From assembly GCF_001426225.1 (NCBI RefSeq), contig NZ_LMRT01000015.1:29526-93525 (forward strand): a stretch of 64,000 bases of DNA, given 5' to 3'. The stretch is from Allobosea sp. Leaf344. Lineage in GTDB: Bacteria; Pseudomonadota; Alphaproteobacteria; Rhizobiales; Beijerinckiaceae. The position numbers were made by a program, and so were the translations under genes. This document shows, one piece after another, positions 1 to 42,084 of this stretch (its first letter is position 1; every line of letters begins with the position of its first letter). The notes below the pieces were generated by a model that did not search any database, was not told where the DNA came from, and saw only the letters and a list, made by a program, of their open reading frames with translations.

Positions 1-586
1 TCGCGACCGTTACCGGCTCGAAACGGCCCGCCTTGTCCATGGCGACGAGGTCGGGGCGGAAATGCAGCATCAGCGACGTCTCGATATCGCCGGCATGGAT
101 GCCGTGATTGGCGTCGAGCTCGTCATAGACGCCGTCGGGCAGGCCGAAGCTGCGCCAGGAGGTGGTCACCGCCATCATGCCGTGGCTGACGCGCAATTCG
201 CGCGCGACCACCTTCATCGGGTCGATATTGCCGCCATGGGAGGTGACGATGACCAGCTTGCGCAGGCCGGCGCGCCTGACGCTTTCGCCGATCTCGATCC
301 AGCCCCGCGTCGCCGTCTCCCAGCCCAGGGTCAGCGTCCCCGGCGAATGCAGATGCTCGTTCGACTTGCAGATCGCCAGCGTCGGCAGCACCAGCACGTC
401 GAGCTCCGCCGGGACATGCGCCATCGCCTCCGCCAGCATGGCGTTCATGATCACGGTATCGACGGCGACGGGCAGATGCGGGCCGTGCTGCTCGGTCGCG
501 GCGAGCGGCAGCACCGCCACCGTCCTATCCGCCACAAGCCCTTCGAAATCGGTGGTCTTGAGATCGCCCCAGAAGCGCGCCGTCAT
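1..586 (-). CDS. Creatininase-family amidohydrolase (C-terminus off the left edge)
   Basis: The reading frame starts with ATG at 586 and runs leftward past base 1, so only about 195 N-terminal residues are present; family members are usually 240-270 residues. Visible family features are the N-terminal ATEQHGPHLP segment (metal ligands Glu and His), a VxVDT segment, and SHGGN followed later by NHGIHAGDIETS, which carry further metal-binding residues. Known members hydrolyse cyclic or linear amides such as creatinine or formamidopyrimidines with two divalent metal ions. It lies 47 bases downstream of the FAD oxidoreductase on the same strand and is probably co-transcribed with it. The substrate cannot be read from sequence. 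Family assignment is firm; the exact reaction is unknown. Confidence 0.88.
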   Translation of the reverse strand, partial: MTARFWGDLKTTDFEGLVADRTVAVLPLAATEQHGPHLPVAVDTVIMNAMLAEAMAHVPAELDVLVLPTLAICKSNEHLHSPGTLTLGWETATRGWIEIGESVRRAGLRKLVIVTSHGGNIDPMKVVARELRVSHGMMAVTTSWRSFGLPDGVYDELDANHGIHAGDIETSLMLHFRPDLVAMDKAGRFEPVTVA

Positions 587-633
587 GGAATCCTGTCCTC
601 GTCTCTCGATCTGTCGGTGAGCTCGGGTCGAGC

Positions 634-2025
634 CTATTCCGCGGCCGCGTCCAGGCTGGCTTCCCAGCCCAGCAGCTTGCCCGGGTTCATCAGCCCGAGC
701 GGGTCCGCCAGCCGCTTGAACTCCGGCTGCGGCGCGTCGATCTGCTTCCAGCCGGCATTGTTCAGCACCCAGCTATGCGGATTCGAGACCTGGATCCCGG
801 CGGCATCGGCCTGCGCCATGATCTCGTGCAGGCGCTCGGCCGTCGTGAAGCGCACCAGCGGCAGGCTGGAATGATAGACCTTGCCCTGCCGGCGCTGGAA
901 CTCGATGTGGAACAGCACATCCTCGTGGAAATGCCGCTCCGCCCAGGCCAGCAATTCGAGATTGCGCAGCGGCGGGAACCGCAGCTGCAGATAGGTGATG
1001 CTCGGATCGACCTTGAGCGCGTGCAGCGTGGTGTGGTTCCAGGTGTATTCGTAGAGCGGCCCCGGCGCGCCCTTCTCGCGATGTTCGCCGAAGGCCGCGG
1101 CGCGCGCCTCCGCCGCGCCGCGTGCGAAGGTGACGGTGCCGCCCATCTGTGCGACGAGCCGATCCAGCTCGTCGCCCTGCGGCTCCGACACCATCAGGAT
1201 CGCGAAGGCCTTGTTCTCGCCGAGCCAGGGCGCGAGCCGGCGCAGATAGGGCGCGATCCGCGGATCGTGGATGCTGACCAGCTTCTTGGCGATGCCGTCG
1301 CATTCGGTGAAGGCCTGGCCGAATTCCGCAGCCTTCTGCAGAGTGTCGAAGATCGCGATCCGCTCAGCCCAGTCATGCGCCGGCGCGAGCGGCACCTCGA
1401 CCTCGGTGATGATGCCGTTGACGCCATAGGCATGCATCACCTTGAGGATGTCTGGGCCGCGCAATTCGATCAGCCGCGGCTCCGGCTCCACGGTCATCAC
1501 CTCCACCGCGATCACCGCGCCCAAATTGTCGATCTGCCCCCAGGTGCAGGAGCCCGCACCGGCGGCGCCGCCGGCGACGAAGCCGCCGATCGTCGCCTGC
1601 GCCCGCGTCGAGGGGTGCATGCGCAGCTCCTGGCCCAGCGGTGCCACGGCCTTGTCGATGTCGAGCATATTGGCGCCGGCCTCGAAACGCCCGGCGCCCA
1701 GGCGGGTCGAGACAATGCGGTTCAGCCGCGTCATGTTCAGCACGACGCCGCCCTCCAGCGGCACGGCCTGGCCGTAATTGCCTGTGCCGCCGCCGCGCAC
1801 CGTCACCGGGACGCGATGCCGGGCGCAGGCCGAAGCGACGCGCCGCAGCTCCGCCTTGTCGCGCGGCAGAACCACCAGCTCCGCCTGCTTCCCTTCGAGA
1901 TCCGGCTTCAGCACCGGCGAGAACCAGAAGAAGTCGCGGCTATGCATGCGCAAAGACGGCGCATCGTCATAGAGGGTCAGGTCGGCGAGCTCGGCGCGCA
2001 GCGCCGCGAGGGCAGGGTGGGTCAT
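634..2025 (-). CDS. FAD-binding PCMH-type oxidoreductase (paralogue 1)
   Basis: This 463-residue protein belongs to the GlcD/vanillyl-alcohol-oxidase-type flavoprotein superfamily. The FAD-binding PCMH domain spans roughly residues 45-220, with the nucleotide loop TVRGGGTGNYGQ at about 75-86 and a glycine-rich run (GGFVAGGAAGAGS) at about 147-159. A conserved SRDFFW motif sits at 29-34 and YEYTWNHTTL near residue 325; both recur in the paralogue at 5097-6488, which has the same length. The protein ends with NPGKLLGWE, as usual in this superfamily. No signal peptide is seen, so it is likely cytoplasmic. It diverges from an ABC transporter and precedes a creatininase-family gene, suggesting oxidation of an imported substrate followed by amide hydrolysis. 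Substrate and electron acceptor are unknown. Confidence 0.9.
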   Translation of the reverse strand: MTHPALAALRAELADLTLYDDAPSLRMHSRDFFWFSPVLKPDLEGKQAELVVLPRDKAELRRVASACARHRVPVTVRGGGTGNYGQAVPLEGGVVLNMTRLNRIVSTRLGAGRFEAGANMLDIDKAVAPLGQELRMHPSTRAQATIGGFVAGGAAGAGSCTWGQIDNLGAVIAVEVMTVEPEPRLIELRGPDILKVMHAYGVNGIITEVEVPLAPAHDWAERIAIFDTLQKAAEFGQAFTECDGIAKKLVSIHDPRIAPYLRRLAPWLGENKAFAILMVSEPQGDELDRLVAQMGGTVTFARGAAEARAAAFGEHREKGAPGPLYEYTWNHTTLHALKVDPSITYLQLRFPPLRNLELLAWAERHFHEDVLFHIEFQRRQGKVYHSSLPLVRFTTAERLHEIMAQADAAGIQVSNPHSWVLNNAGWKQIDAPQPEFKRLADPLGLMNPGKLLGWEASLDAAAE

Positions 2026-2189
2026 GCGGGTCCTGGATCAGAGGCGCTCCACCTTAGCGCGCCGGCCGGGCGAGGGAAGCGCCAGTCTGGAATGCGCCCC
2101 TTCAGATTTCAGCCTGCCTGGAAATTGAGCATCTGCGCGTTCTCTGTGCGAAAGCGCGCTATCGTGCATTTTCAGTCCTGGCTTCGGCA

Positions 2190-2205
2190 TGGCATACATG
2201 TTGCT
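2190..2205 (+). promoter_or_regulatory. Sigma-54 (RpoN) promoter
   Basis: TGGCATACATGTTGCT fits the -24/-12 consensus TGGCACG-N4-TTGCW, with the invariant GG and GC at the correct 10-base spacing. The predicted start site is near 2216, leaving a leader of about 41 bases before the ATG at 2257, which has a good ribosome-binding site (AGGGAGG at 2242-2248). It points toward the NitT/TauT-type transporter operon. Sigma-54 promoters need an upstream activator such as NtrC; no convincing NtrC site was recognised. Confidence 0.65.
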
Positions 2206-2256
2206 CGCCCGCGTCCGAAGCCGCCATCGGCCGTGCATTCCAGGGAGGTTGCCATC

Positions 2257-3285
2257 ATGACCATGAAGTATCGCATCAGCCGGCGCGCGGCGCTGGGCCT
2301 GCTGGGCGGATCGGCCGCCTCGGTTCTCGTGCCCGTCCCCGGCGCGCGGGTGAACGCCCAGACCCTCGACAAGGTCAGTTACCAGACCAATTGGCGCGCC
2401 CAGGCCGAGCATGGCGGCTTCTATTACGCGGCGGTCAACGGCATCTACAAGAAATACGGCATCGACGCCGAGATCCGCCCGGGCGGCCCGCAGCAGAACC
2501 CGTCCCAGCTCCTGCTCGGCGGGCGCGTCGACATGATCATGTCGAACTCCTTCGAGGCGATCCGCTACGCGCAGGAGAACATCCCCTTCCTCTGCATCGC
2601 GTCGATCTTCCAGAAGGACCCGCAGGTGCTGATCTCGCATCCGGGCCAGGGCAATGACTCGCTCGCCGCGCTGAAGGGCAAGCCGATCCTGATCGGAGCC
2701 GCCGGCCGCAGCAGCTATTGGCCCTTCCTGAAGGCGAAATTCGGCTATGCCGACGAGCAGATCCGGCCCTACACCTTCAACATGGCGCCGTTCCTGGCCG
2801 ACAAGACCATCTCGCAGCAGGGCTTCCTCTCCTCCGAGCCCTTCGCGATCCAGAAGGCGGGCGTGAACCCGGTCGTGCACCTGATCGCCGATGCCGGCTT
2901 CGAGAACTACAACACCACCATCAACATCTCCCGGAAGATGGTCGACGAGAAGAAGGACCTCGTCCAGCGCTTCGTCACCGCCACGCTGGAAGGCTGGGCG
3001 GAATATATGAAGGCCGGCCCGGGCAATGCCGCCGCCGACGCCCAGATCCTGAAGGACAACCCCGACATGGATCAGGAGAAGATCAATTACGCGCTGAAGG
3101 TGATGAACGAGAAGGGCATCGTCACCTCCGGCGACGCGCTCACCCTCGGCATCGGCGCGATGACCGATGCGCGCTGGGCCAGCTTCTACAAGACGATGAC
3201 CGATGTCGGCGTCTTCCCGGCCGGCATCGACGTCAAGAAGGCCTACAGCCTCGAATTCATCAACAAGGGCGTCGGCAAGGCCTGA
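2257..3285 (+). CDS. NitT/TauT-type ABC transporter substrate-binding protein (NMT1/THI5-like)
   Basis: This 342-residue periplasmic protein begins with a twin-arginine signal (SRRAALGLLGGSAAS, cleavage near VNAQ about residue 34). The mature part shows the NMT1/THI5-like pattern: TNWRAQAEHGGFYYA near the start, then QLLLGGRVDMI and the second lobe. Relatives bind sulfonates, thiamine precursors, pyrimidine derivatives, riboflavin or aromatic acids. The ATG at 2257 is chosen because AGGGAGG lies 8 bases upstream; the open frame extends far upstream only as non-coding read-through. It is the first gene of an operon with an ATPase, a permease and an FAD oxidoreductase, behind a predicted sigma-54 promoter. 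The ligand is not predictable from sequence. Confidence 0.92.
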   Translation: MTMKYRISRRAALGLLGGSAASVLVPVPGARVNAQTLDKVSYQTNWRAQAEHGGFYYAAVNGIYKKYGIDAEIRPGGPQQNPSQLLLGGRVDMIMSNSFEAIRYAQENIPFLCIASIFQKDPQVLISHPGQGNDSLAALKGKPILIGAAGRSSYWPFLKAKFGYADEQIRPYTFNMAPFLADKTISQQGFLSSEPFAIQKAGVNPVVHLIADAGFENYNTTINISRKMVDEKKDLVQRFVTATLEGWAEYMKAGPGNAAADAQILKDNPDMDQEKINYALKVMNEKGIVTSGDALTLGIGAMTDARWASFYKTMTDVGVFPAGIDVKKAYSLEFINKGVGKA

Positions 3286-3307
3286 GCCTTCGCCCGCGAT
3301 CGACAGG

Positions 3308-3343
3308 GCAGGCGCCGCCGGAAATCGCACCGCCGGCGCCTGC
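3308..3343 (+). terminator. Intercistronic hairpin after the binding-protein gene
   Basis: GCAGGCGCC pairs perfectly with GGCGCCTGC around an inner partly paired stem and a short loop. There is no U-tract, so it is more likely a processing or mRNA-stabilising hairpin that keeps binding-protein expression above that of the ATPase and permease than a true terminator. Confidence 0.5.
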
Positions 3344-3374
3344 GACGAGTTCCACGAGCAGCGGATTTCAGGCT

Positions 3375-4190
3375 TTGGACACAGCCTCTCTGAGCACGGC
3401 GGCCAGACCCCATATCGACGTCGAGAAACCCCTGGTCTCGATCAGGCACGTCTCCAAGCAATTCGCCAACGGCACGCTGGCCGTGCGCGACGTCGATCTC
3501 GATCTCGGCTCGGGGCAGTTCATCAGCCTGCTCGGCCCCTCCGGCTGCGGCAAATCCACCTTGCTGCGGATGATCGCCGGTCTCGGCTCGCCGTCCTCCG
3601 GCACGATCGACTGGCCTCGCACCAGCCATGACGCGGCGGGCAGGCCCGAGCGCGATCTCGGCTTCGTCTTCCAGGACCCGACGCTGATGCCCTGGGCGAC
3701 GGCGCTCGGCAATGTGATGATGCCGCTGACGCTGAAGGGCGTGCGCAGGCGCGAGGCGGAGGCGCGGGCCGCCGAGATGCTGGCGCTGGTCGGGCTGAAG
3801 GGTTTTGAAAAATCCTATCCGCGCGAGCTGTCCGGCGGCATGAAGATGCGCGTCTCGATCGCGCGGGGGCTCGTGCTGCGGCCGAAGATCCTGCTGATGG
3901 ACGAGCCCTTCGCGGCGCTCGACGAGATCACCCGCCACCGCCTCAACGACGATTTGCTCGAGCTCTGGTGGAAGGAGCGCTTCACCGCGGTGTTCGTCAC
4001 CCATTCCGTCTTCGAATCGGTCTATCTCTCGAAGCGCATCGTGGTGATGGCGGCGCGTCCCGGCCGTGTGATGGCCGATCTCGACGTCGACGCCCCCTAT
4101 CCGCGCGACGAATTGTTCCGGACCTCGGCCGATTACGCCCATCTCTGCCGCGTCGTCTCCGGCAAGCTCAAGGAGGCGATCGGCTCATGA
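3375..4190 (+). CDS. NitT/TauT-type ABC transporter ATP-binding protein
   Basis: This 271-residue nucleotide-binding subunit carries Walker A (GPSGCGKST), a Q-loop (VFQDPTLMPW), the signature LSGGMKMRV, Walker B (LLMDEPFAALD) and the H-loop (FVTHS). No ATG exists between the stop of the previous gene and the ABC domain in this frame; TTG at 3375 gives the usual family length, but the ribosome-binding site is weak, so the start is uncertain. The frame remains open upstream across the binding-protein gene by chance. The TGA stop overlaps the ATG of the permease (ATGA), indicating translational coupling. It energises uptake of the unknown ligand. Confidence 0.9.
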   Translation: MDTASLSTAARPHIDVEKPLVSIRHVSKQFANGTLAVRDVDLDLGSGQFISLLGPSGCGKSTLLRMIAGLGSPSSGTIDWPRTSHDAAGRPERDLGFVFQDPTLMPWATALGNVMMPLTLKGVRRREAEARAAEMLALVGLKGFEKSYPRELSGGMKMRVSIARGLVLRPKILLMDEPFAALDEITRHRLNDDLLELWWKERFTAVFVTHSVFESVYLSKRIVVMAARPGRVMADLDVDAPYPRDELFRTSADYAHLCRVVSGKLKEAIGS

Positions 4191-5095
4191 GCGCGTCTCG
4201 CTCCATCCAGGCGGGGGAACCGGTCGCGCTGGGCATCGCCCCCGCGCATGACGGCACCGATGCGCAGGCGCTGCCCGTCTTCGCCGCCGAGGCGCGGGTG
4301 CTCGGCCTGCCGGCCAGCACCTGGCCGCGCATCCTTGCGCCGCTGATCATCGGCATGCTGGCGCTCGGCCTCTGGGAGTTCGCCGTCCGCGCCAATGGCA
4401 TTCCCTCCTATGTCCTGCCCGGGCCGCTGCTGATCGGCCAGACGCTGGTGGCGGATTGGGGCACGCTCTCCGGCTCGCTCTGGATCACGTTGCGGATCAC
4501 CTTCATGGCGCTGGCCGCGGCGGTGATCGTCGGCGTCACGCTCGCGGTGCTGTTCACCCAGTCGAAATGGCTGGAAATGTCGCTGCTGCCCTATGCGGTG
4601 ATCCTGCAGGTCACGCCGATCGTCGCGATCGCCCCGCTGATCATCATCTGGGCCGGCGACATCAACCTGTCGCTGCTGATCTGCGCCTGGATCGTCGCGT
4701 TCTTCCCGATCCTGTCGAACACCATCCTCGGGCTCAACTCGGCCGATCACAATCTGATCAACCTGTTCCAGCTCTATGGCGCGACACGCTGGCAGACGCT
4801 GCGCTATCTCAAGCTGCCGGCCGCGCTGCCCTATTTCCTGGCCGGGCTGAAGATTTCCGGCGGCCTGGCGCTGATCGGCGCTGTGGTGGCGGAATTCGTC
4901 GCCGGCACCGGCGGCAGCGCCTCCGGCCTGGCCTATCGCATCCTGGAATCCGGCTACCAGCTCAAGATCCCGCGCGTCTTCGCGGCGCTGATCATGATCT
5001 CGGTCTCCGGTATCGCGATCTTCCTGGTGACCAGCTGGATCTCGCATCTGGCGCTGCGGCGCTGGCATGAAAGCGCGCTGAAGCGGGAGAATTGA
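4187..5095 (+). CDS. NitT/TauT-type ABC transporter permease
   Basis: This 302-residue inner-membrane protein has about six hydrophobic segments beginning near residue 42 (LAPLIIGMLALGLWEFAV) and the EAA-like coupling loop around FQLYGATRWQTLRYLKLP, typical of the SsuC/TauC (BPD_transp_1) family. The ATG at 4187 overlaps the stop of the ATPase gene by four bases. It ends one base before the ATG of the following FAD oxidoreductase, so transporter and enzyme are clearly one transcription unit. Confidence 0.93.
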   Translation: MSASRSIQAGEPVALGIAPAHDGTDAQALPVFAAEARVLGLPASTWPRILAPLIIGMLALGLWEFAVRANGIPSYVLPGPLLIGQTLVADWGTLSGSLWITLRITFMALAAAVIVGVTLAVLFTQSKWLEMSLLPYAVILQVTPIVAIAPLIIIWAGDINLSLLICAWIVAFFPILSNTILGLNSADHNLINLFQLYGATRWQTLRYLKLPAALPYFLAGLKISGGLALIGAVVAEFVAGTGGSASGLAYRILESGYQLKIPRVFAALIMISVSGIAIFLVTSWISHLALRRWHESALKREN

Positions 5096-5096
5096 G

Positions 5097-6488
5097 ATGA
5101 GCGCCATCCCCGAGCGCAGGCCGCGGCCACAGCAGCCCTCGCGCTACGACATCGCCGGCTTCACGAGCGAGGTCGCCGGCATCGAGCTGATCGACGAGCC
5201 GCAGGTGGTGCGCAAGCGCTCGCGGGATTTCTTCTGGTATTCGCCGATCCTGAACCGCGAGCTCGCCGAGAAATCGGCCGATATCATCGCGGTGCCGAAG
5301 GACGAGGCGGAGGTGGTCCGCATCGCCGCCGCCTGCGCCAGGCGCCGCATCCCGCTGACGGTGCGCGCGGCGGGCACCGGCAATTACGGCCAGGCGGTGC
5401 CGCTCGAGGGTGGCGTGCTGCTCGACATCACGGCTCTCGCCGGCGTGGAGTGGCAGAAGCCCGGCGCGGTCCGGGCCGCCGCCGGCACGCGCCTGCTCGA
5501 TCTCGACATGGCGACGCGCGAGCACGGCTTCGAGCTGCGCATGCACCCGTCGACCAAGCGCTCGGCGACGCTCGGCGGCTTCATCGCCGGCGGCTCGGGC
5601 GGCGTCGGGTCCGTGACCTATGGCGGGCTGCGCGAACCGGGCAACATCCTGGCGGCACGCATCGTCACGGTGGAAGAGCAGCCGCGCATCCTGGAGCTGC
5701 GCGACGACGCCGCCCAGAAGGTCAATCGCGCCTATGGCACCACCGGCATCATCACGGCGCTGGAGATGCCGCTCGCGCCGGCCTGGCCCTGGATCGACGT
5801 CATCACGGTGTTCGACGATTATATGGAGGCGTTCCAGGCGGGTTATGACGTCGCCTTGGCCGATGGCGTGGTCAAGAAGCTGGTGACACCGATCGCCTGG
5901 CCGATCCCGGGCTATTTCGGCGCGCTGAAACAGCATTGCCCGGAGGGCAAGAGCATCCTGATCTGCATGATCGCCGAGGCCTCGCTCGGGCCCTTCAAGG
6001 CGCTGATCGGCGGGCGCGGCACCGTCACCTACGAGGCGCCGTCACAGGAAGGCCCGGGAACCGTCCCGCTCTACGAATATTGCTGGAACCACACCACGCT
6101 GCAATGGCTGAAGAGCGACCGCTCGGTCACCTATCTCCAATGCCTCTTCCCGCATGACCGGCTGGTCGAGAGCGCCCGGGAGATGATCGCGCGCTTCCCC
6201 GACGAGGTTCTGGCGCATCACGAATTCATCCGCTTCGGCGGGCGCGTCACCGCCAGCGCGCTGCCCGTGCTGCGCTTCACCGATGCGGAGCGGCTGAACC
6301 GGATCATCGCCGAGCATGAGGAAGCGGGCGTGATGATCGCCAATCCCCATGTCGTCTCGCTGGAGGCCGGCAGCCGGCACAAGCGCGCCGATGCCGATCA
6401 GCTCGGCTTCAAGCATGAGGTCGATCCGCACGGGCTGCTGAACCCGGGCAAGATGGACAGTTTCGTCGCCGCCGATCAGGCGAAATAG
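5097..6488 (+). CDS. FAD-binding PCMH-type oxidoreductase (paralogue 2)
   Basis: This 463-residue flavoprotein is homologous throughout to the one encoded at 634-2025. Shared landmarks are SRDFFWYSP (about residues 42-50), TVRAAGTGNYGQAVPLEGG, ELRMHPST, a glycine-rich GGFIAGGSGG loop, YEYCWNHTTL near residue 325, and NPGKMDSF at the C-terminus. In the flavin loop it has Ala-Ala-Gly where paralogue 1 has Gly-Gly-Gly. It is the last gene of the ABC operon, with one base between the permease stop and its ATG. Having two copies on either side of one transporter promoter suggests two successive oxidations, two related substrates, or a hetero-oligomer. Its last 13 bases overlap the 3' end of the convergent gene. 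Confidence 0.9.
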   Translation: MSAIPERRPRPQQPSRYDIAGFTSEVAGIELIDEPQVVRKRSRDFFWYSPILNRELAEKSADIIAVPKDEAEVVRIAAACARRRIPLTVRAAGTGNYGQAVPLEGGVLLDITALAGVEWQKPGAVRAAAGTRLLDLDMATREHGFELRMHPSTKRSATLGGFIAGGSGGVGSVTYGGLREPGNILAARIVTVEEQPRILELRDDAAQKVNRAYGTTGIITALEMPLAPAWPWIDVITVFDDYMEAFQAGYDVALADGVVKKLVTPIAWPIPGYFGALKQHCPEGKSILICMIAEASLGPFKALIGGRGTVTYEAPSQEGPGTVPLYEYCWNHTTLQWLKSDRSVTYLQCLFPHDRLVESAREMIARFPDEVLAHHEFIRFGGRVTASALPVLRFTDAERLNRIIAEHEEAGVMIANPHVVSLEAGSRHKRADADQLGFKHEVDPHGLLNPGKMDSFVAADQAK

Positions 6489-31211: not shown

Positions 31212-32291
31212 TCAGGCCTGCACCCCGTCGACATACCAGTCCATCTTGGACAGCATCTCGTCGGAGGCCTTCTCGCCCGCCTTCAGGCGCTGCACGCCCT
31301 TCTGGTCCTTGAGCTCGCCGGTGAAGGGGTGCAGCGAGCCGTCGACGATGCCCTTCTGGACGGCGTCGGCCGCCTGCCGCGCAGCCGGCGTCACGGCGGC
31401 GTTGTAGGGCGCCAGCTTGACCATCCCGTCCTTGATGCCGCCCCAGACGTCGCCGCTCTTCCAGCTGCCGTCCATCGCCTCCTTGACCCGGCGGATATAG
31501 TAGCCGGACCAATCGTCGACGATCGCGGAGAGATGGGCCTTCGGCGCGAAGGCGCTCATGTCCGAGGCCTGGCCGAAGGCGAAGACGCCGCGCTGCTCGG
31601 CCGCCTGCAGGGCGGCGGCGGAATCGGTGTGCTGGGTGATGATGTCGCAGCCCTGGTCGATCAGCGCCTTGGCCGCATCGGCCTCCTTGGCCGGGTCGTA
31701 CCAGGTAGAGGCCCAGATCACCTTGGTCTTGAAGTTCGGGTTCACCTTCTGCGCGGCGAGGGTGAAGGCGTTGATGCCCATCACCACCTCCGGGATCGGG
31801 AAGGAGGCGATGTAGCCGGCCGTGCCGGATTTCGACATGTGCCCGGCGATGGTGCCGATCACCGCGCGCCCCTCATAGAAGCGGGCATTGTAGGTGGCGA
31901 CGTTCTCGGCGCGCTGATAGCCGGTGGCGTGCTCGAATTTCAGCTTCGGGAACTGTTTCGCGACCTGGATGGTCGGGTTCATGAAGCCGAAGGAGGTGGT
32001 GAAGATCAGCTGGTTGCCGGCTTGGGCGAGCTGCCGGATCGCGCGGGCGGCGTCGGGCCCCTCGGCCACGTTCTCGATGAAGCTGGTCTTGATCTTGTCG
32101 CCATACTCCTTCTCCAGCGCCTTGCGGCCCTGGTCATGGGTCCATGTCCAGCCATGATCGCCGACCGGCCCGACATAGATGAAGCCGACGCCGAAGGGCG
32201 CCTGGGCCAGCGCGCGGCCGGCGGCGAAGGGCAGGGTGGCGGCGGCGCCGGCGCCGAAGGTGAAGCGGCGGCGGGTGATGATGGAGGTCAT
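31212..32291 (-). CDS. BMP-family ABC transporter substrate-binding protein
   Basis: This 359-residue protein carries a twin-arginine signal (TRRRFTFGAGAAATLPFAA, cleavage near ALAQ about residue 30) and the BMP/PnrA-like fold: VGFIYVGPVGDHGWT at the start, KFEHATGY in the middle, and ITQHTDSAAALQAAEQRG near residue 210. BMP proteins bind purine nucleosides or bases. It follows the second permease by 30 bases and ends the nucleoside transport operon, so the binding protein is unusually encoded last. Confidence 0.93.
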   Translation of the reverse strand: MTSIITRRRFTFGAGAAATLPFAAGRALAQAPFGVGFIYVGPVGDHGWTWTHDQGRKALEKEYGDKIKTSFIENVAEGPDAARAIRQLAQAGNQLIFTTSFGFMNPTIQVAKQFPKLKFEHATGYQRAENVATYNARFYEGRAVIGTIAGHMSKSGTAGYIASFPIPEVVMGINAFTLAAQKVNPNFKTKVIWASTWYDPAKEADAAKALIDQGCDIITQHTDSAAALQAAEQRGVFAFGQASDMSAFAPKAHLSAIVDDWSGYYIRRVKEAMDGSWKSGDVWGGIKDGMVKLAPYNAAVTPAARQAADAVQKGIVDGSLHPFTGELKDQKGVQRLKAGEKASDEMLSKMDWYVDGVQA

Positions 32292-32321
32292 GTCTCGTCG
32301 TCTCCTGTTGTGTCGGCGGCG

Positions 32322-33245
32322 TCAGGACGCCGTGAAAGCCTTGCCGAGGCAGGCCGGCGCATCGAGCCGTCCCGCGCCTCGCCTCAGCGACATCATGGTC
32401 AGAACCACGATTGTCGCAAGATAGGGAGCCATGGCCAGCACCTCGGGCGCCAGCCAGGCGATGCCCGCCGCCTTGGCCTGGAGTTCCAGGGTCATCACCG
32501 CGCCGAAGAGATAGGCCCCGAGCAGCAGCCGTCCCGGACGCCAGGCGGCGAAGACGACAAGCGCCAGCGCGATCCAGCCGCGGCCGGCCGTCAGCCTGTC
32601 GGCCCACATCGGCGTCAGCGCCAGCGAGAAATAGGCGCCGCCGAGCCCGGCGAGCGCGCCGCCGAAGGCGATGGCGGCGTAGCGGATGCCGATGACGGGA
32701 TAGCCGATCGCATGCGCCGACTGGTCGTTTTCCCCGACCGCCCGCAGGATCAGCCCCGGCCGCGTCCGGCGCAGGAACAGGCTGACCGCCAGCACCAGCG
32801 CCAGCGACAGATAGACCATGACGTCATGGCCGAACACGACCCGCAGCCAAGGATGGCCGGCGAGCGCCTCGGGGAAGACCGGGCCGAGCCGCTCGATGGT
32901 GCGGCCGACGAAGCCCGCGCCGATCAGCGAGGAGGCGCCGATGCCGAAGATCGTCAGCGCCAGCCCGGTTGCCACCTGGTTGGCGGTGAGCGACAGGGTC
33001 AGGACGGCGAAGACCATGGCGGTGGCGATGCCGGCGAGCGCGGCCGCGGCGAGGCCGAGCCCGGTGCTGCCCGTGCCATAGGCCACCGCGAAGCCGGCGA
33101 CCGCTCCGCACAGCATCATGCCCTCGACGCCGAGATTGAGCACGCCGCTCTTCTCGACCACGAGCTCGCCCAGCGCCGCGAGCAGGATCGGCGTCGCGGC
33201 CGCGACGAGGGTCATGACGATCGAGACCAGGATGACGCTGTTCAT
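32322..33245 (-). CDS. BMP-type (nucleoside/purine) ABC transporter permease 2
   Basis: The protein is 307 residues with about eight hydrophobic segments and the BPD_transp_2 pattern (LGVEGMMLCGAVAGFAVAYGTG, then FGGALAGLGGAYFSL). It matches the NupQ/YufQ-type second permease. The ATG at 33245 lies 73 bases after the first permease stop. It forms the heteromeric channel with permease 1. Confidence 0.92.
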   Translation of the reverse strand: MNSVILVSIVMTLVAAATPILLAALGELVVEKSGVLNLGVEGMMLCGAVAGFAVAYGTGSTGLGLAAAALAGIATAMVFAVLTLSLTANQVATGLALTIFGIGASSLIGAGFVGRTIERLGPVFPEALAGHPWLRVVFGHDVMVYLSLALVLAVSLFLRRTRPGLILRAVGENDQSAHAIGYPVIGIRYAAIAFGGALAGLGGAYFSLALTPMWADRLTAGRGWIALALVVFAAWRPGRLLLGAYLFGAVMTLELQAKAAGIAWLAPEVLAMAPYLATIVVLTMMSLRRGAGRLDAPACLGKAFTAS

Positions 33246-33318
33246 GGCGCCGCGCTCCTGAGGTCGGCGCCAGCCGCAGCCGCGTCACCGCGCGGGCGAT
33301 CGGGGGGGAGGGTCCGGC

Positions 33319-34375
33319 TCACGCGCTGCGCTCCCGCCGGACGATCCGGTATTTCACCAGCACGTCGGTCGCGAGCAGCACGAAGAGCAGCAGCGCCTGG
33401 AACATCCCCGTCGCCGCCTGCGGCAGCTTCACCGTGGTCTGCGCCACCTCGCCGCCGACATAGGTCGCGGCCAGGATCACGCCGCCGAAGACGATGCCGA
33501 GCGGGTGCAGCCGGCCGAGAAACGCGACGATGATGGCGGTGAAGCCGTAATTCGTGGGGAATTGCGGGGTCAGCTGGCCGAACGGGCCCGCCGCCTCGAA
33601 CAGCCCGGCGAGCCCGGCCAACCCCCCGCCGGCGAGGAGCGAGGCCCAGGTCACCGCATCGGCGCTGAAGCCGCCATGGCGCGCGGCGGCGGGTGCCAGC
33701 CCCACCACCTTCACGCCATAGCCCGCGACCGTCTTCTCCAGAACCAGCCAGGCCAGAGCCGCCGCGAGCAGCGCGAGGGGGATGCCGAGATGCACCAGCG
33801 AACCCTCGAGCATCACCGGCAGCGTCTGATCCGCGGTGAACATCCGCGTCTGCGGAAAATTGAAGCCGTCCGGGTCCTTCCACGGGCCGCGCACCAGATA
33901 ATACAGCGCCTGCACCGCGACATAGGTCAGCATCAGGCTGGTCAGGATCTCGCTGACCTGCAGCCGCACCCGCAGCAGCGCCGGAACCGCTGCCCAGGCC
34001 ATGCCGCCCAGCACGCCGGCCAGCGCCATCGCCGGCAGGATCCACCAGCCGCTCATCTCATAGGTCAGGAGGGCGACGCCGGTGCCGGCGATGGCGCCCA
34101 TGATGTATTGCCCCTCCGCGCCGATATTCCAGACATTGGCGCGAAAGCCGATCGCGAGCCCGAGCGCGATCATGATCAGCGGCGCGGCCTTGACGCCGAG
34201 ATCGGGCCAGCGCTGCGGCTCCAGAAACGGCGTCAGGAAGATGTCGTGCACGGCGCGGATGCCGTCATAGCCCATCAGGGTGAAGACCAGCGTGCCGAGC
34301 GCCATGGTCAGCACCACCGCGATCAGCGGGCTCAGATAGAGCATTGAGCGGCTGGGTTCGCGCCGGCGCCGCCAC

Positions 34376-34383
<8 letters not shown>
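33319..34383 (-). CDS. BMP-type (nucleoside/purine) ABC transporter permease 1
   Basis: This 354-residue permease has a short cytoplasmic Arg-rich N-terminus (LEWRRRREPSRS) and about eight to nine membrane segments with the NIGAEGQYIMGAIAGTG motif of the NupP/YufP type. ATG at 34383 overlaps the stop of the ATPase gene (ATGCTTGA), showing translational coupling. The fold and order fit purine nucleoside importers. Confidence 0.92.
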
Positions 34384-35914
<1,531 letters not shown>

Positions 35915-36006: not shown

Positions 36007-36843
36007 TCATATCCCCTGCAACTCCCTCGACACGGTCGGCTTCGTCGGCCGGCCAAGCAAACTCCGCACCAGCTCGGCCGCCGTCAAGGCGGCGATCACC
36101 TCGGGGCGCTTGTCGTCCACATCGCCGCCGCCGATCGGGCAGATCAGCCGCGCCAAGGTCTCCCTGCGCCCGCCGCCGCGCAGGAAGCCGCTCTCGAAGC
36201 GGGCGCGCTTGGTGGCGGAGCCGATCATGCCGACATAGGCGGCATCCCCGCGCGCCAGCGCCGCCTCGGCCAGGCGGTAGTCGAGCGCATGGCTGTGGCT
36301 CAGCACGATGAAGGCGGAGCCCGGCCGCGCCGCATCCACCGCCTGCACGGGATCCTGCATGCGCAGGCAGGTGATGGCGCGGGGCAGCCCGTCCAGCACG
36401 CCGTCGCGATCATCGACCAGCAGCGTCGCGAAGGGCAGGGGGGCCAGGGCCTGGGCCAGCGCCCGCCCGGTATGGCCCGCACCGAAGATCAGGATCGAAG
36501 GGCGCATCGCGGCCTGCGCCTTCTCCCGCGCGGCGACGGCGGCGAGCTCGGGCGCGCCGGCGCGCTGCAGCGCGACCTCGACATGGCCGCCGCAGCACTG
36601 GCCCATTTGCGGCCCGAGCGGGATCGCCAGCTCGCGGCGCGCCTCGCCTGTCGTCAGCATGGCGCGCGCCAGGTCGATGCAGTGGAATTCGAGCTGCCCG
36701 CCACCGATCGTGCCCGCCATCGCCGCCGCGGAAACCGCCATGGTCGCGCCGGCCTCGCGCGGGGTCGAGCCACGGGCCGCGACCAGCGTCACCAGCACGA
36801 CGCCCTGCGCGAGATGCGTCGCGAGGAAGGCGGAGACGGTCAT
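36007..36843 (-). CDS. xdhC: Xanthine dehydrogenase accessory protein XdhC
   Basis: This 278-residue protein has the XdhC N-terminal signature (VAARGSTPREAGATMAV, GTIGGGQLEF) and a C-terminal Rossmann-like XdhC_C domain (LIFGAGHTGRALAQAL, then VGMIGSATKRARF). XdhC binds molybdenum cofactor, promotes its sulfuration and inserts it into XdhB. ATG at 36843 overlaps the stop of xdhB by four bases. Confidence 0.95.
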   Translation of the reverse strand: MTVSAFLATHLAQGVVLVTLVAARGSTPREAGATMAVSAAAMAGTIGGGQLEFHCIDLARAMLTTGEARRELAIPLGPQMGQCCGGHVEVALQRAGAPELAAVAAREKAQAAMRPSILIFGAGHTGRALAQALAPLPFATLLVDDRDGVLDGLPRAITCLRMQDPVQAVDAARPGSAFIVLSHSHALDYRLAEAALARGDAAYVGMIGSATKRARFESGFLRGGGRRETLARLICPIGGGDVDDKRPEVIAALTAAELVRSLLGRPTKPTVSRELQGI

Positions 36844-39194
36844 CCTGCAAGGGCCTCCGCCCGCACCCGCTCCACCGCCGCGAGCACGCGCTCGGGCGTC
36901 GCCGGCGCATCGAGGCGCGGGCAGATCCGGTGCCCGCCGAGGCTCGCTACCGCATCCGACAGGGCGTGCAGCACCGAGATCGCCAGCATCAGCGGCGGCT
37001 CGCCGACCGCCTTGGAGCGGTGGATCGTCGGCTCGCGATTGGGCGCGTTCTGCAGCAGCGCGACGTTGAAGATCCGCGGCCGGTCGGAGGCGACGGGGAT
37101 CTTGTAGGTCGAGGGCGCATGGGTGCGCAGCCGCCCCTTGTCGTCGAAGACCAGCTCTTCCGTCGTCAGCCAGCCCATGCCCTGGACGAAGCCGCCCTCG
37201 ATCTGCCCGATATCGATCGCCGGATTCAGCGAGGTCCCGCAATCATGCAGGATATCGGTCCGTTCCACCTTGTATTCGCCGGTCAGCGTGTCGATCGCGA
37301 CCTCGGTCGCGGCGGCGCCATAGGCGAAATAATAGAAGGGGTGGCCGCGTCCGGCCTTGCGGTCCCAGTTGATCTTCGGCGTGGCGTAGAAGCCGGTTGC
37401 CGAGAGCTGGGTGCGGGCGACATAGGCCGCCTTGACGAGATCGACGAAGGCGATTTCGCGCCCGCCGACCTGGACATGGCCCTGGCGGAACCGGATCGCC
37501 TCCGGGCTCTCCTGCCAATGCCTCGCCGCGAAGGCTACGAGCCGCGCCTTGATCGTCTCGCAGGCGTCGAGCGCCGCCATGCCGTTCAGGTCGGAGCCGG
37601 AGGAGGCGGCCGTGGCCGAGGTGTTGGGGACCTTGCCGGTGGTGGTGGCGGTGATCTTGACCTGGTCCAGCCCCACACCGAAGGCCTGCGCCACCACCTG
37701 CGCCACCTTCACATACAGGCCCTGGCCCATTTCGGTGCCGCCATGGTTCAGCGCGATGGTCCCGTCGGTATAGACATGCACCAGCGCCCCGGCCTGGTTG
37801 TACCAGGTGGCGGTGAAGGAAATCCCGAATTTCACCGGCGTCAGCGCCAGGCCGCGCTTGACGATGCGGCTCTCGCGGTTGAAGGCGGCGATCGCCTCCC
37901 GGCGGGCGCGGTAGTCGCAATCCCGCTCCAGCTGCGCCATCACCTCGCCGGCGATCATGTCCTCGACGCGCTGGTGATAGGGGGTGATGTCGCGATTCTC
38001 GCCGCCATAGAGGTTGCGCCGGCGCACCTCCAGCGGATCGAGCCCGGTGGCGAAGGCGACCTCCTCGATGAAGCGTTCCGCACCGACCATCCCCTGCGGC
38101 CCGCCGAAACCGCGAAACGCCGTGTTCGAGACGGTATGGGTGCGCAGGGGCTCCGAGCGGAGCCGGACGGCCGGGTAGAAATAGCAATTATCGGCGTGGA
38201 ACAGCGCGCGGTCGGTCACCGGGCCCGAGAGATCCGCATTCCAGCCGCAGCGCGCGGCATAGACGGCGTCGACGGCGAGGATATGCCCGTCATCATCGAA
38301 GCCGATCTCGTAATCGCAGACGAAATCATGGCGCTTGCCGGTGATGATCATGTCGTCGTCGCGGTCGGGCCGCAGCTTCACGGCCCGTCTCAGCTTGCGC
38401 GCCGCCAGCGCCGCGACCACCGCGAACAGATTGGACTGCGTCTCCTTGCCGCCGAAGCCGCCGCCCATGCGGCGCACCTCCACGGTCACCGCATGTGAGC
38501 CGACGCCGAGCACCTGCGCCACCATGTGCTGAACTTCGCTGGGATGCTGGGTCGAGGACAGCACCAGCATGTCCTCGTCCTCGCCGGGGATGGCGAGCGC
38601 GATCTGGCTTTCCAGATAGAAATGATCCTGGCCGCCGATCGTCATGGCCGCCTTGAGCCGGCGCGGGCTGGCCTGGAGAGCGGCGGAGACGTCGCCGCGC
38701 TCCAGCTTCAGCGGCTCGGTCACCAGCTCTCCCCCCGCGGCGCGCGCGGCGGCCACGTCCAGGACCGGCGCGGCTTCCTCATAGACGGCTCGCGCCAGCA
38801 GCGCCGCCTGCCGTGCCTGCGCCCGCGTCCGCGCCACCACCGCAAAGAGCGGCTGGCCGTGATGCATGATGCGGTCCGTCGCGAAGATCGGCTCGTCATG
38901 GCGATGCGTCGAGGAAATGTCGTTGACGCCCGGGATATCGGCCGCCGTCACCAGCCCCAGCACGCCGGGTGCCGCCTCGACGGCTGCCAGATCGAGCGAG
39001 ACGAGCCTGCCATGCGCGATGGTGCTGAGGCCGAGACAGGCATGGGCGAGGCCCGCCGGCTCCGGCAGATCGTCGATATAGAGCGCCTCGCCCGCCACAT
39101 GCTTGGGGGCGGAATCATGCTTGCTGCCGCGACCGACCGGTCCCTCCTGCGGTTCGGTCGCCGCAGCGGCGTCCTGGGCGAGGCCGTCAGCCAT
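36840..39194 (-). CDS. xdhB: Xanthine dehydrogenase molybdopterin-binding subunit XdhB
   Basis: This 784-residue subunit contains the molybdopterin domain with GGGFGGKETQ at about residue 250 and the catalytic-Glu region KAVGEPPLML near residue 735. Features common to xanthine dehydrogenases are present rather than those of CO or aldehyde dehydrogenases. It oxidises hypoxanthine to xanthine and urate together with XdhA. It overlaps xdhA by eight bases and xdhC by four. Confidence 0.96.
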   Translation of the reverse strand: MADGLAQDAAAATEPQEGPVGRGSKHDSAPKHVAGEALYIDDLPEPAGLAHACLGLSTIAHGRLVSLDLAAVEAAPGVLGLVTAADIPGVNDISSTHRHDEPIFATDRIMHHGQPLFAVVARTRAQARQAALLARAVYEEAAPVLDVAAARAAGGELVTEPLKLERGDVSAALQASPRRLKAAMTIGGQDHFYLESQIALAIPGEDEDMLVLSSTQHPSEVQHMVAQVLGVGSHAVTVEVRRMGGGFGGKETQSNLFAVVAALAARKLRRAVKLRPDRDDDMIITGKRHDFVCDYEIGFDDDGHILAVDAVYAARCGWNADLSGPVTDRALFHADNCYFYPAVRLRSEPLRTHTVSNTAFRGFGGPQGMVGAERFIEEVAFATGLDPLEVRRRNLYGGENRDITPYHQRVEDMIAGEVMAQLERDCDYRARREAIAAFNRESRIVKRGLALTPVKFGISFTATWYNQAGALVHVYTDGTIALNHGGTEMGQGLYVKVAQVVAQAFGVGLDQVKITATTTGKVPNTSATAASSGSDLNGMAALDACETIKARLVAFAARHWQESPEAIRFRQGHVQVGGREIAFVDLVKAAYVARTQLSATGFYATPKINWDRKAGRGHPFYYFAYGAAATEVAIDTLTGEYKVERTDILHDCGTSLNPAIDIGQIEGGFVQGMGWLTTEELVFDDKGRLRTHAPSTYKIPVASDRPRIFNVALLQNAPNREPTIHRSKAVGEPPLMLAISVLHALSDAVASLGGHRICPRLDAPATPERVLAAVERVRAEALAG

Positions 39195-40662
39195 GGGCGG
39201 CCTCCACCAGCAGCCCCGCGACGCGGGTGGCGGTGGCGGGCTCGCGGGTTTCGATCAGGAAGCGCCGCAGCAGATTCCCCGCGACGGTGAGCCGATAGCC
39301 GGCGCTGGCCCGCATGTCGCTCAGCGGCGTGAAATCGGCCGGCAGCCGGGCGATGGCGGCGTCGACCGCCGCCTCGTCCCAGACCCGGCCGCGCAAGGCG
39401 GCCTCGGCGGCGGCGGCGCGCTTGGGGATCCCGGCCATGCCGCCATAGGCCAGCCTCGCCTCCAGAATGCGCCCCTCCGCGTCGATGCGCAGGAAGAACG
39501 CCGCGCACAGCGCAGAAATATCCTCGTCGAAGCGCTTGCTGATCTTCGACACGTGGAAGAGCGCATCCGCGGGCGGCTTCGGGACGATGATCTCGGAGAC
39601 GAATTCGCCCTTGCGCCGGTCCTGCTTCCTGTAATCCAGGAAGAAATCCTCGAGCGCGATCTCACGCAAACCAGTTCCGGAACGCAGCAACAGCCTGGCG
39701 CCGAGCGCGATCAGGGCCGGGGGCAGATCGCCGATCGGCGAGCCATTGGCGATATTGCCGCCGATCGTCCCGGCATTGCGCACCTGCTCTCCGCCGAAGC
39801 GGCGCATCAGCTCGTCGAGCTGCGGCGAGAGCGCAGCCAGCGCGGCGCGGACATCGCCATGATTGGCCATGGCGCCGAAGCGCAGCGTGTCGCCGGTATC
39901 GACGATGCTCCGCATCTCCTCGCAGCGCCCCAGATACAGGATCGCCGGCGGAATCTGCATACCCTTGGTCACCCAGAGCCCGACATCGGTCGCCCCGGCG
40001 ACGAGGATCGCATCCGGATGCTGCATCACCAGCTCCGCCAGCGCCGCCTGCGTCACGGGGGCGTGGAAGCTGCGGCCCGCCTCGCCCAGCACCAGCGTCT
40101 CGCCATCGGCGAGCTCGGCGAGCCGCGCCGCGATCGCCGCCTCCGCCTGCGCCAGCCGCTCCTGGGGCCGGCCTCCGCGGTACAGAGCGAGCGCTGCGGC
40201 GATGATCGGCTGGTAGCCCGTGCAGCGACACAGATTGCCGGCCAGCGCATCCTCGATCCGGGCCACATCAGGCGCGGCTTCGTTCAGCCAGAGCGCGAAG
40301 AGCGACATCACGATGCCCGGCGTGCAGAAGCCGCATTGCGAGCCGTGATGCGTCACCAGCGCCTGCTGCACCGGATGCAGGCCGCCATCCGCCGCCTTGA
40401 GATGCTCGACCGTCAGGAGATGGCACCCCTCCAGCGTCGGCAGGAAGCGAATGCAGGCGTTGATCGCCTCATAGCGCAGGCGGCCGCGGTCGAGCCGGCC
40501 GACGACGACGGTGCAGGCGCCGCAATCGCCCTCGGCGCAGCCCTCCTTCGAGCCGGTCAGGCGCCGCTCCAGCCTCAGCCAGTCCAGCACCGTCAGGGTC
40601 GGATCGCAGGCCGCGATCTCGATCAGCTCCTCGCCGAGGATGAAGCGCAGGGTTCTACGCAT
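39187..40662 (-). CDS. xdhA: Xanthine dehydrogenase iron-sulfur/FAD subunit XdhA
   Basis: This 491-residue protein has two [2Fe-2S] domains, with a first cluster motif CAEGDCGACT (about residue 42) and second-cluster motifs CGFCTPG and CRCTGYQP, then an FAD domain (about 190-360, with AGTIGGNIANGSPIGDLPP) and a C-terminal flavoprotein domain. This is the bacterial two-subunit arrangement. ATG at 40662 is preceded by the divergent intergenic region with a perfect inverted repeat. First gene of the xdhABC operon. Confidence 0.96.
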   Translation of the reverse strand: MRRTLRFILGEELIEIAACDPTLTVLDWLRLERRLTGSKEGCAEGDCGACTVVVGRLDRGRLRYEAINACIRFLPTLEGCHLLTVEHLKAADGGLHPVQQALVTHHGSQCGFCTPGIVMSLFALWLNEAAPDVARIEDALAGNLCRCTGYQPIIAAALALYRGGRPQERLAQAEAAIAARLAELADGETLVLGEAGRSFHAPVTQAALAELVMQHPDAILVAGATDVGLWVTKGMQIPPAILYLGRCEEMRSIVDTGDTLRFGAMANHGDVRAALAALSPQLDELMRRFGGEQVRNAGTIGGNIANGSPIGDLPPALIALGARLLLRSGTGLREIALEDFFLDYRKQDRRKGEFVSEIIVPKPPADALFHVSKISKRFDEDISALCAAFFLRIDAEGRILEARLAYGGMAGIPKRAAAAEAALRGRVWDEAAVDAAIARLPADFTPLSDMRASAGYRLTVAGNLLRRFLIETREPATATRVAGLLVEAAHG

Positions 40663-40678
40663 GGCTGGATGCCCAAAT

Positions 40679-40699
40679 CATGCCTCCAGATTAGGCATG
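40679..40699. promoter_or_regulatory. Perfect 7-7-7 inverted repeat in the xdhA-guaD divergent gap
   Basis: CATGCCT and AGGCATG are exact inverted copies separated by seven bases. The element is 17 bases from the xdhA ATG and 50 from the guaD ATG, inside an 87-base divergent gap. Its placement suits a repressor operator for purine genes; the protein is not identified. Confidence 0.5.
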
Positions 40700-40749
40700 T
40701 TCGGTGCTTGGCCGAAAGCTTTGATTTGGTGCAGATATGATCTGATTTT

Positions 40750-42084
40750 ATGCCGGAGCCGAAGCCCGTGATGGAAAACACAGCGATACGGGCGTTGCGG
40801 GGCCGTCTCCTCTGGTTCGTCGACGACCCTGAGAGTGCCGGTGCGGGCGCCCATCGCTTCATCGAGGACGGGCTGCTGCTGATCCGGGACGGGCATATCG
40901 TGGCGGCCGGGCCTGCGGCCGCGCTGCTGCCGGAGCTGCCCGAAGGCGTCGAGCCGGTCGACCACCGGCCGCATCTGATCATGCCGGGCTTCATCGACGC
41001 GCATCTGCATCTGCCGCAGACCCAGGTCATCGCCTCCTATGGCGCCCAGCTGATCGACTGGCTCAACCGCTACACCTTCGTCGAGGAGCAGAAATCCGCC
41101 GATCCCGCCCATGCCGACGCACAGGCGCGCTTCTTCCTGGACGAGCTGCTGGCGAGCGGCACCACCACCGCCAGCGTCTATGGCTCGGTGCATCCGGCAT
41201 CGGTCGAGGCCCTGTTCGCCCTGTCGGCGCAGCGCGACACCCGCATGATCGCCGGCAAGGTGATGATGGATCGCAACGCGCCGGCGGCGCTCACCGACAC
41301 GCCTGAGACCGGCTATGCCGAGAGCAAGGCGCTGATCGCGCGCTGGCACGGCAAGGGCCGGCAGCTCTACGCAGTGACGCCGCGCTTCGCCATCACCTCC
41401 TCGCCGGAGCAGCTCGCCGCGGCCGGGCGGCTGGCGGCCGAGCATCCGGACTGCCATGTCCAGACGCATATCAACGAGAACCGCGCCGAGATCGCCTTCA
41501 CCCGCGATCTCTACCCCGACGCGCCCGACTATGCCGGAATCTACGAGCGCTACGGGCTGCTGCGCGGCAACAGCCTGATGGGCCATTGCATCCATATGAC
41601 CGACCGGGAATGGGCGGCCTTCGCCGCGGCCGGCGCGGTGGCGGTGTTCTGCCCGACATCGAACCTGTTCCTCGGCTCCGGCCTGTTCGACCGGGCCCGG
41701 GCCCGGCGCGAGGGGGTACGCGTCGCCATCGCCAGCGATATCGGCGGCGGCACTTCCTATTCCATGCTGCGGACGCTGGCCGAGGCCTACAAGGTGCTGC
41801 AATTGCAGGGGCAGTCGCTGTCGGCCTTCGCCGCCCTGCATGCGATCACCCGCGGCAATGCGCTGGCGCTCGGGCTCTCGGACCGCATCGGCTCGTTCGA
41901 GACCGGCCGCGAAGCCGACCTCGTGGTGCTGGATACGCGCGCGACGCGGGCGATGGCGCACCGGCTGGAGACGGCGCGCGATCTCGCGGAGGAGCTGTTC
42001 GTGCTCGTCACGCTCGGCGACGAGCGCAACGTCGCCGCGACCTATGTGATGGGCCGGCGGATCATGCCGCAAGCCGGCCGGTGA
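40750..42084 (+). CDS. guaD: Guanine deaminase
   Basis: This 444-residue amidohydrolase has the metal-binding HxH at residues 85 and 87 (IDAHLHLPQ), and the GuaD-type QVIASYGAQLIDWLN block follows immediately. Further ligands are in HIHMTDREW and SDIGGG. It converts guanine to xanthine and ammonia. It diverges from xdhA, whose product takes xanthine further to urate, and the purine transporter is downstream of xdhC; together they form a coherent purine module. ATG 40750; an ATG at 40771 is also possible. Confidence 0.95.
   Translation: MPEPKPVMENTAIRALRGRLLWFVDDPESAGAGAHRFIEDGLLLIRDGHIVAAGPAAALLPELPEGVEPVDHRPHLIMPGFIDAHLHLPQTQVIASYGAQLIDWLNRYTFVEEQKSADPAHADAQARFFLDELLASGTTTASVYGSVHPASVEALFALSAQRDTRMIAGKVMMDRNAPAALTDTPETGYAESKALIARWHGKGRQLYAVTPRFAITSSPEQLAAAGRLAAEHPDCHVQTHINENRAEIAFTRDLYPDAPDYAGIYERYGLLRGNSLMGHCIHMTDREWAAFAAAGAVAVFCPTSNLFLGSGLFDRARARREGVRVAIASDIGGGTSYSMLRTLAEAYKVLQLQGQSLSAFAALHAITRGNALALGLSDRIGSFETGREADLVVLDTRATRAMAHRLETARDLAEELFVLVTLGDERNVAATYVMGRRIMPQAGR

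Follow-up and report, generated by a model that had tools for sequence, protein, structure and literature searches.

Within a 64,000-nucleotide stretch of the Allobosea sp. Leaf344 genome (contig NZ_LMRT01000015.1, positions 29,526 to 93,525; hereafter the window), positions 1-6488 hold a locus that we interpret, with moderate confidence, as a sigma-54-controlled system that takes up a pteridine (pterin, lumazine or a related folate breakdown product) and degrades it oxidatively. A 231-bp divergent gap (2026-2256) separates the genes for a flavin adenine dinucleotide (FAD) protein, FAD1, and a creatininase-family hydrolase (CRE) on the minus strand from those for the substrate-binding protein (SBP), ATPase and permease of an ATP-binding cassette (ABC) importer and a second flavoprotein, FAD2, on the plus strand. 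An earlier, sequence-only reading of this DNA had described the hydrolase, two paralogous 463-residue flavoproteins, a complete importer around a divergent gap and a sigma-54 site; all are present, as borne out by Pfam matches and by 44.3% identity between FAD1 and FAD2, both 463 amino acids long. Its proposal that a nitrogen heterocycle is imported, oxidized by flavoenzymes and hydrolyzed as an amide under sigma-54 control is supported by the flavoprotein family, the ring deaminases linked to the locus in relatives and the conserved promoter site; among such heterocycles, a pteridine is the most likely substrate.

Both flavoproteins match the family of PDB entries 6v42 and 6v43, titled as a flavin oxygenase involved in folate catabolism, over their full length in sequence and in fold, far above GlcD/LDHD; the 6v42 fold match stands 19 Z units above GlcD/LDHD-type structures. 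The three motifs that the sequence-only reading had singled out as unlike those of GlcD-type enzymes proved near-invariant in a 38-sequence family alignment, in which W330, H332, T333, T334, S42, R43, D44 and W47 do not vary, and 6v42 carries them as well (SRDFYW, TGNYGQAMPLSGG and WNHTTL). The GlcD models of NCBIfam scored FAD1 and FAD2 at 55.3-80.8 bits against cut-offs of 567.9 and 897. In a family tree of 98 sequences, each of at least 400 amino acids, FAD1 (46.1% identical to the aligned part of 6v42) forms its own clade. The true 6v42 counterpart in this genome is a third flavoprotein gene, at C8, which is 64.5% identical to 6v42 and groups with it in the tree; FAD1 and FAD2 belong to the same family but occupy sister clades, and in the window the importer and CRE adjoin them. 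Six cyanobacterial records (L059, L060, L062, L065, L066 and L069, one titled Trichodesmium) each contain a solitary member of the family, 42-45% identical, for which no partners were found; in the two that were read, L059 and L065, the SRDFFW motif is changed to SKDYYS and SLDYYH.

The association of these parts recurs in relatives. The best 80 of 136 FAD1 matches were kept as loci, and partner counts were redone by tblastn, the simple gene caller having failed on some lower-GC loci (Roseibium, cyanobacteria). Among the 80 loci, CRE was detected in 51, the permease in 50 and SBP in 49; CRE and SBP were both present in 42, and one or the other in 58. Other linked genes encode a flavodoxin-like reductase (33 loci), a RidA protein (18), an isochorismatase (17), a Rieske oxygenase (16) and a cupin (16), and deaminases acting on rings are also among them: a PRK07583-type amidohydrolase in 22 loci and a 2paj-like amidohydrolase in 14 (11 by stricter clustering). 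PDB entry 2paj, reported as the isoxanthopterin deaminase of Hall et al. (2010), is the best solved match of this latter family in the 11 related loci; no member lies in the window. Many of the contigs were short; when only the 55 loci of at least 15 kb were considered, 44 contained CRE or SBP and 37 contained both. Because gene orders vary between lineages, the linkage is more than shared descent of one block. In a sample drawn independently of the flavoprotein, 60 genomes of the family including that of the window, SBP and CRE were each matched in 39 genomes and the flavoprotein, at E 1e-60 or better, in 18. Twenty of the 26 flavoprotein matches, in 15 of the 18 genomes, had an SBP or CRE match no more than 10 kb away, where roughly 0.3 would be expected if each genome is taken as 4.3 Mb. 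The closest named contigs with the same locus are from Bosea, with a flavoprotein up to 91% identical.

The sigma-54 site noted at 2190-2205, TGGCATACATGTTGCT, fits the consensus TGGCAYRNNNNTTGCW perfectly. Scanning the window with one mismatch allowed gave 1 match against 1.39 expected, so the site is not above chance by that test alone; the whole genome of 4,345,447 bases holds 2 perfect matches, and none when the pattern is read backwards. Conservation of the site was then evident before the SBP genes of relatives. In a scan that required the GG and GC cores, a site with at most one mismatch within 350 bp upstream preceded 35/52 SBP genes compared to 35/905 other genes, and the remaining genes of the cluster rarely carried it (ATPase 2/71, permease 1/53, FAD1-like 3/39, FAD2-like 4/63, CRE 5/51). 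With added loci the count was 37/67 SBP genes, a figure that, like the other locus counts for the promoter and the palindrome, overstates independence since many of the scanned loci are mutually related; controls gave 0, 1, 1 and 0 for spacers N2, N3, N5 and N6, 0 for the backwards pattern, 2 for the opposite strand, and a mean of 0.27 (maximum 2) over 200 mononucleotide shuffles. As a sigma-54 promoter requires, the -24/-12 elements stand at the fixed distance and recur upstream of orthologous genes, and the genome has one copy of rpoN. Upstream of the site lies a version, with two mismatches, of the palindrome TGCAC-N7-GTGCA, which resembles the NtrC consensus. It occurs with at most two mismatches in the 160 bp upstream of the sigma-54 site in 20/35 loci, compared with 2 to 8 for other spacers and a mean of 3.4 (maximum 10) over 200 dinucleotide shuffles; by hand count, its best match (at most three mismatches) starts 55-57 bp upstream of the site in 18 of the 35. 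The genome has four strong activator-domain genes, including a pair on C13 separated by 4 kb. Control by NtrC and use of the substrate as a nitrogen source are what we infer. The genome's other perfect sigma-54 match (G000 C1:841799-841814, L092) lies 88 bp before a 596-residue gene followed by ABC-transporter-like genes.

The promoter also follows genomic context. Among 66 loci with a called SBP, the site is present in 36/46 that have a flavoprotein and no nearby LysR gene, in 0/10 with both a flavoprotein and LysR, and in 1/10 without a flavoprotein; L114, L115 and L119, second copies of L079, L087 and L089, were dropped from these counts, from the 37/67 count above and from the 75%-identity clusters described below. 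It is as if the regulator had been swapped, LysR for sigma-54, in the LysR-bearing loci (L063, L068, L071, L073, L075, L077, L078, L081, L084 and L089). These are nine Bradyrhizobium and one Lichenibacterium, so the swap would represent one or two events.

An NMT1-type binding protein, one ATPase and one permease in a row (PF09084, PF00005 and PF00528) constitute a NitT/TauT-type importer. The SBP N-terminus, MTMKYRISRRAALGLLGG, reads by eye as a twin-arginine-like leader, and the predicted SBP fold is nearest to the ThiY/thiamin binders, the thiamin- and formyl-aminopyrimidine-binding proteins. A viral-contig scan with SBP confirmed no match, and a viral fold library gave weak matches to it only. 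CRE has the Pfam Creatininase domain, and in an alignment its relatives retain the metal-binding E-x-H, D and H residues of creatininase. The position of the creatininase ligand Glu122 is Gly in these relatives. The piece of CRE in the window scored 85.6 bits against the creatininase model TIGR04448 (cut-off 235) and 107.4 bits against the mycofactocin MftE model TIGR03964 (cut-off 172). Three full-length relatives also fell below both cut-offs (80.7, 93.1 and 88.3 bits; 105.6, 115.6 and 117.3 bits), which rules out a true creatininase or MftE. Since both cut-offs are missed, CRE is assigned to the creatininase-family amidohydrolases at large, outside the curated creatininase and MftE groups.

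Which genes are present, the families to which they belong, their recurrent linkage in varied orders and conservation of the promoter are direct observations; we infer the substrate, the order of steps and oxygenase rather than dehydrogenase chemistry. In the proposed route, an SBP exported by a twin-arginine-type signal and its ABC importer would carry a pteridine into the cell, where the ring may be deaminated by an amidohydrolase encoded at C8 in this genome and within the cluster in relatives. FAD1 and FAD2 would oxidize the ring, or two successive or alternative rings; they are probably O2-using flavin oxygenases, supplied by the flavodoxin-like reductase encoded alongside in many relatives. 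The CRE metallohydrolase would then cut the cyclic amide, or formamide, that arises from oxidation. Relatives unite a flavin oxygenase with a gene resembling flavin reductases, an isochorismatase similar to RutB and a RidA protein; the last three suggest, by analogy with the Rut pyrimidine pathway (RutA/B/C/F), a Rut-like logic with a different oxygenase fold. The 6v42-family oxygenases are not known to share a fold with RutA. The RutB- and RutC-similar genes belong to relatives and not to the window. The isochorismatase resembles RutB and biuret hydrolase below both cut-offs (RutB, 134 vs 378 bits), and the RidA proteins score 31.5 bits against the RutC cut-off of 169. A search for a RutB-like protein in this genome gave best matches of 33% and 27%, unlinked. 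A bolder version, which we think unlikely, is that the cluster and its relatives supply the missing genes of bacterial pteridine-ring degradation, a pterin/lumazine ABC importer with Rut-like chemistry. The flavin oxygenase and partner reductase would open or oxidize the uracil half of the deaminated pteridine, the creatininase-family cyclic-amide hydrolase would act next, with the RutB-like and RidA proteins taking part in relatives, and the product would enter xanthine metabolism, XdhABC being encoded in the same window. Reportedly, McNutt in the 1960s traced isoxanthopterin through 7-hydroxylumazine, tetraoxypteridine and xanthine-8-carboxylate to xanthine.

Several observations weigh against the pteridine interpretation. 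FAD1 and FAD2 are not orthologues of 6v42 itself, both lying in other clades of the 98-sequence tree at 46% identity, and 6v42 is tied to folate by its PDB title, with no paper found among open-licence literature. The C8 locus is unlinked to the window cluster, and no clear isoxanthopterin deaminase was found in this genome: the best match, at 39%, is classed by NCBIfam as an 8-oxoguanine deaminase. The PRK07583 amidohydrolase of relatives is a cytosine deaminase by NCBIfam name. Neither CRE nor SBP occurs in 22/80 flavoprotein loci, 11 of these 22 being shorter than 15 kb, nor in 11/55 long loci (Roseibium, Breoghania, Prosthecomicrobium and cyanobacteria). Clustering of SBP at 75% identity left 8/26 clusters with a sigma-54 site and 18 without, so the signal extends over several lineages and not all. 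Conversely, the two further genomes sampled from this genus (G011 and G052; L100 and L101) have importer and CRE with no flavoprotein nearby, each carrying one elsewhere in the genome. The sequence-only reading had named a breakdown of co-occurrence in related genomes as a result that would refute it. Since 10 of the 66 loci with a called SBP, including those of G011 and G052, have no nearby flavoprotein, most of them with importer and CRE, co-occurrence does in part fall apart. A fixed five-part cassette is ruled out, the flavoproteins being optional. Many of the 43 SBP matches in the 60 sampled genomes are without a flavoprotein, with importer and CRE only at L102-L105, L108 and L110, for example; the genes around such loci looked unrelated by eye. 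Because SBP loci, including same-genus ones, often lack a flavoprotein, importer and CRE form a stable core, and the flavoproteins a variable catabolic part.

The same machinery might instead process some other N-heterocycle or cyclic amide, such as a purine, hydantoin or pyrimidine derivative, its paralogues having diverged in substrate from the folate enzyme; we consider this possible, though not probable. It would accommodate the separate clades of FAD1 and FAD2, 42-47% identical to this genome's 6v42 counterpart, the sub-cut-off isochorismatases linked in relatives, and the XdhABC and guanine deaminase genes 30 kb away in the window. However, linkage to 2paj-like deaminases, and 6v42-type genes in nine loci, indicate pteridines specifically. 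A second alternative, that importer and CRE serve thiamin-pyrimidine salvage (ThiXYZ-like, with CRE deformylating formyl-aminopyrimidine) and the flavoproteins are add-ons, draws on the fold of the SBP model and on the loci with importer and CRE and no flavoprotein. SBP is 17% identical to the ThiXYZ/ThiY pyrimidine importers (3ix1). No thiamin pyrophosphate riboswitch was seen here, the window giving no Rfam match at gathering score and the Rfam matches in 13 related loci including none, and a sigma-54 promoter with deaminase and flavin oxygenase partners fits salvage poorly. The salvage reading is thereby weakened, and we rate its chances as low. That FAD1 and FAD2 are conventional D-2-hydroxyacid dehydrogenases of the GlcD/LDHD type, with an importer next to them that is unrelated, is extremely improbable, such an identity being ruled out by the NCBIfam scores and the fold given above and countered by the recurring linkage with importer, hydrolase and deaminases.

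Folate and pterins are set free by every dying cell, and to our knowledge bacterial uptake and mineralization of the pteridine ring have hardly been described at the gene level. Among open-licence papers, none was found on the importer combination, the two extra flavoprotein clades or sigma-54 control, and none on the 6v42 family, whose structure is solved. The component families are known; their combination with an importer, the two extra clades and sigma-54 control are apparently new by that search. Under the pteridine interpretation, the conserved importer-hydrolase-oxygenase set would provide a concrete, testable parts list with a candidate pteridine ABC importer, and a regulatory prediction: sigma-54, replaced by a LysR gene in Bradyrhizobium loci.

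Table 1. Features of the locus at window positions 1-6488.
Feature	Position	Strand	Basis and remarks
CRE, creatininase-family amidohydrolase	2..586	-	Pfam PF02633, 4.7e-58; 3' end of gene outside window
FAD1, 463-residue VAO-type flavoprotein of 6v42 family	634..2025	-	PF01565 (FAD_binding_4); 6v42, 405 bits
NtrC-like palindrome TGCGCGTTCTCTGTGCG	2134..2150	+	2 mismatches to TGCAC-N7-GTGCA
Sigma-54 promoter TGGCATACATGTTGCT	2190..2205	+	Perfect match; 67 bp upstream of SBP start codon
SBP, NMT1/THI5-like substrate-binding protein, RR-type signal sequence	2257..3285	+	PF09084, 6e-24
ABC transporter ATPase	3375..4190	+	PF00005, 1.4e-33; TTG start at 3375 picked by simple gene caller, uncertain
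ABC transporter permease (BPD_transp_1)	4187..5095	+	PF00528, 2.4e-26
FAD2, second 463-residue flavoprotein of 6v42 family	5097..6488	+	Pfam FAD_binding_4

The ATPase and permease genes share 4 bases, and the permease stop at 5095 abuts the FAD2 start at 5097; because of this spacing, the three genes read as one operon. A single unresolved N (L090 position 15525, contig C14) directly precedes window base 1 and interrupts the creatininase gene; it is likely an assembly ambiguity, the open frame past it departing from the pattern of relatives. Elsewhere in the window, XdhC, XdhB and XdhA, all above NCBIfam cut-offs, and a guanine deaminase (560 bits, cut-off 375) are encoded at 36007-42084. A Bmp-type ABC set at 31212-35863 adjoins them, and together they form a cluster for purine catabolism, 30 kb away from the flavoprotein-importer locus. 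In Phreatobacter loci (e.g. L020:11394-15026), FAD1 is followed by a carbon-nitrogen hydrolase and a diaminopropionate ammonia-lyase-like gene, which may encode subsequent steps of this route; in L020 an aldehyde dehydrogenase lies beyond them.

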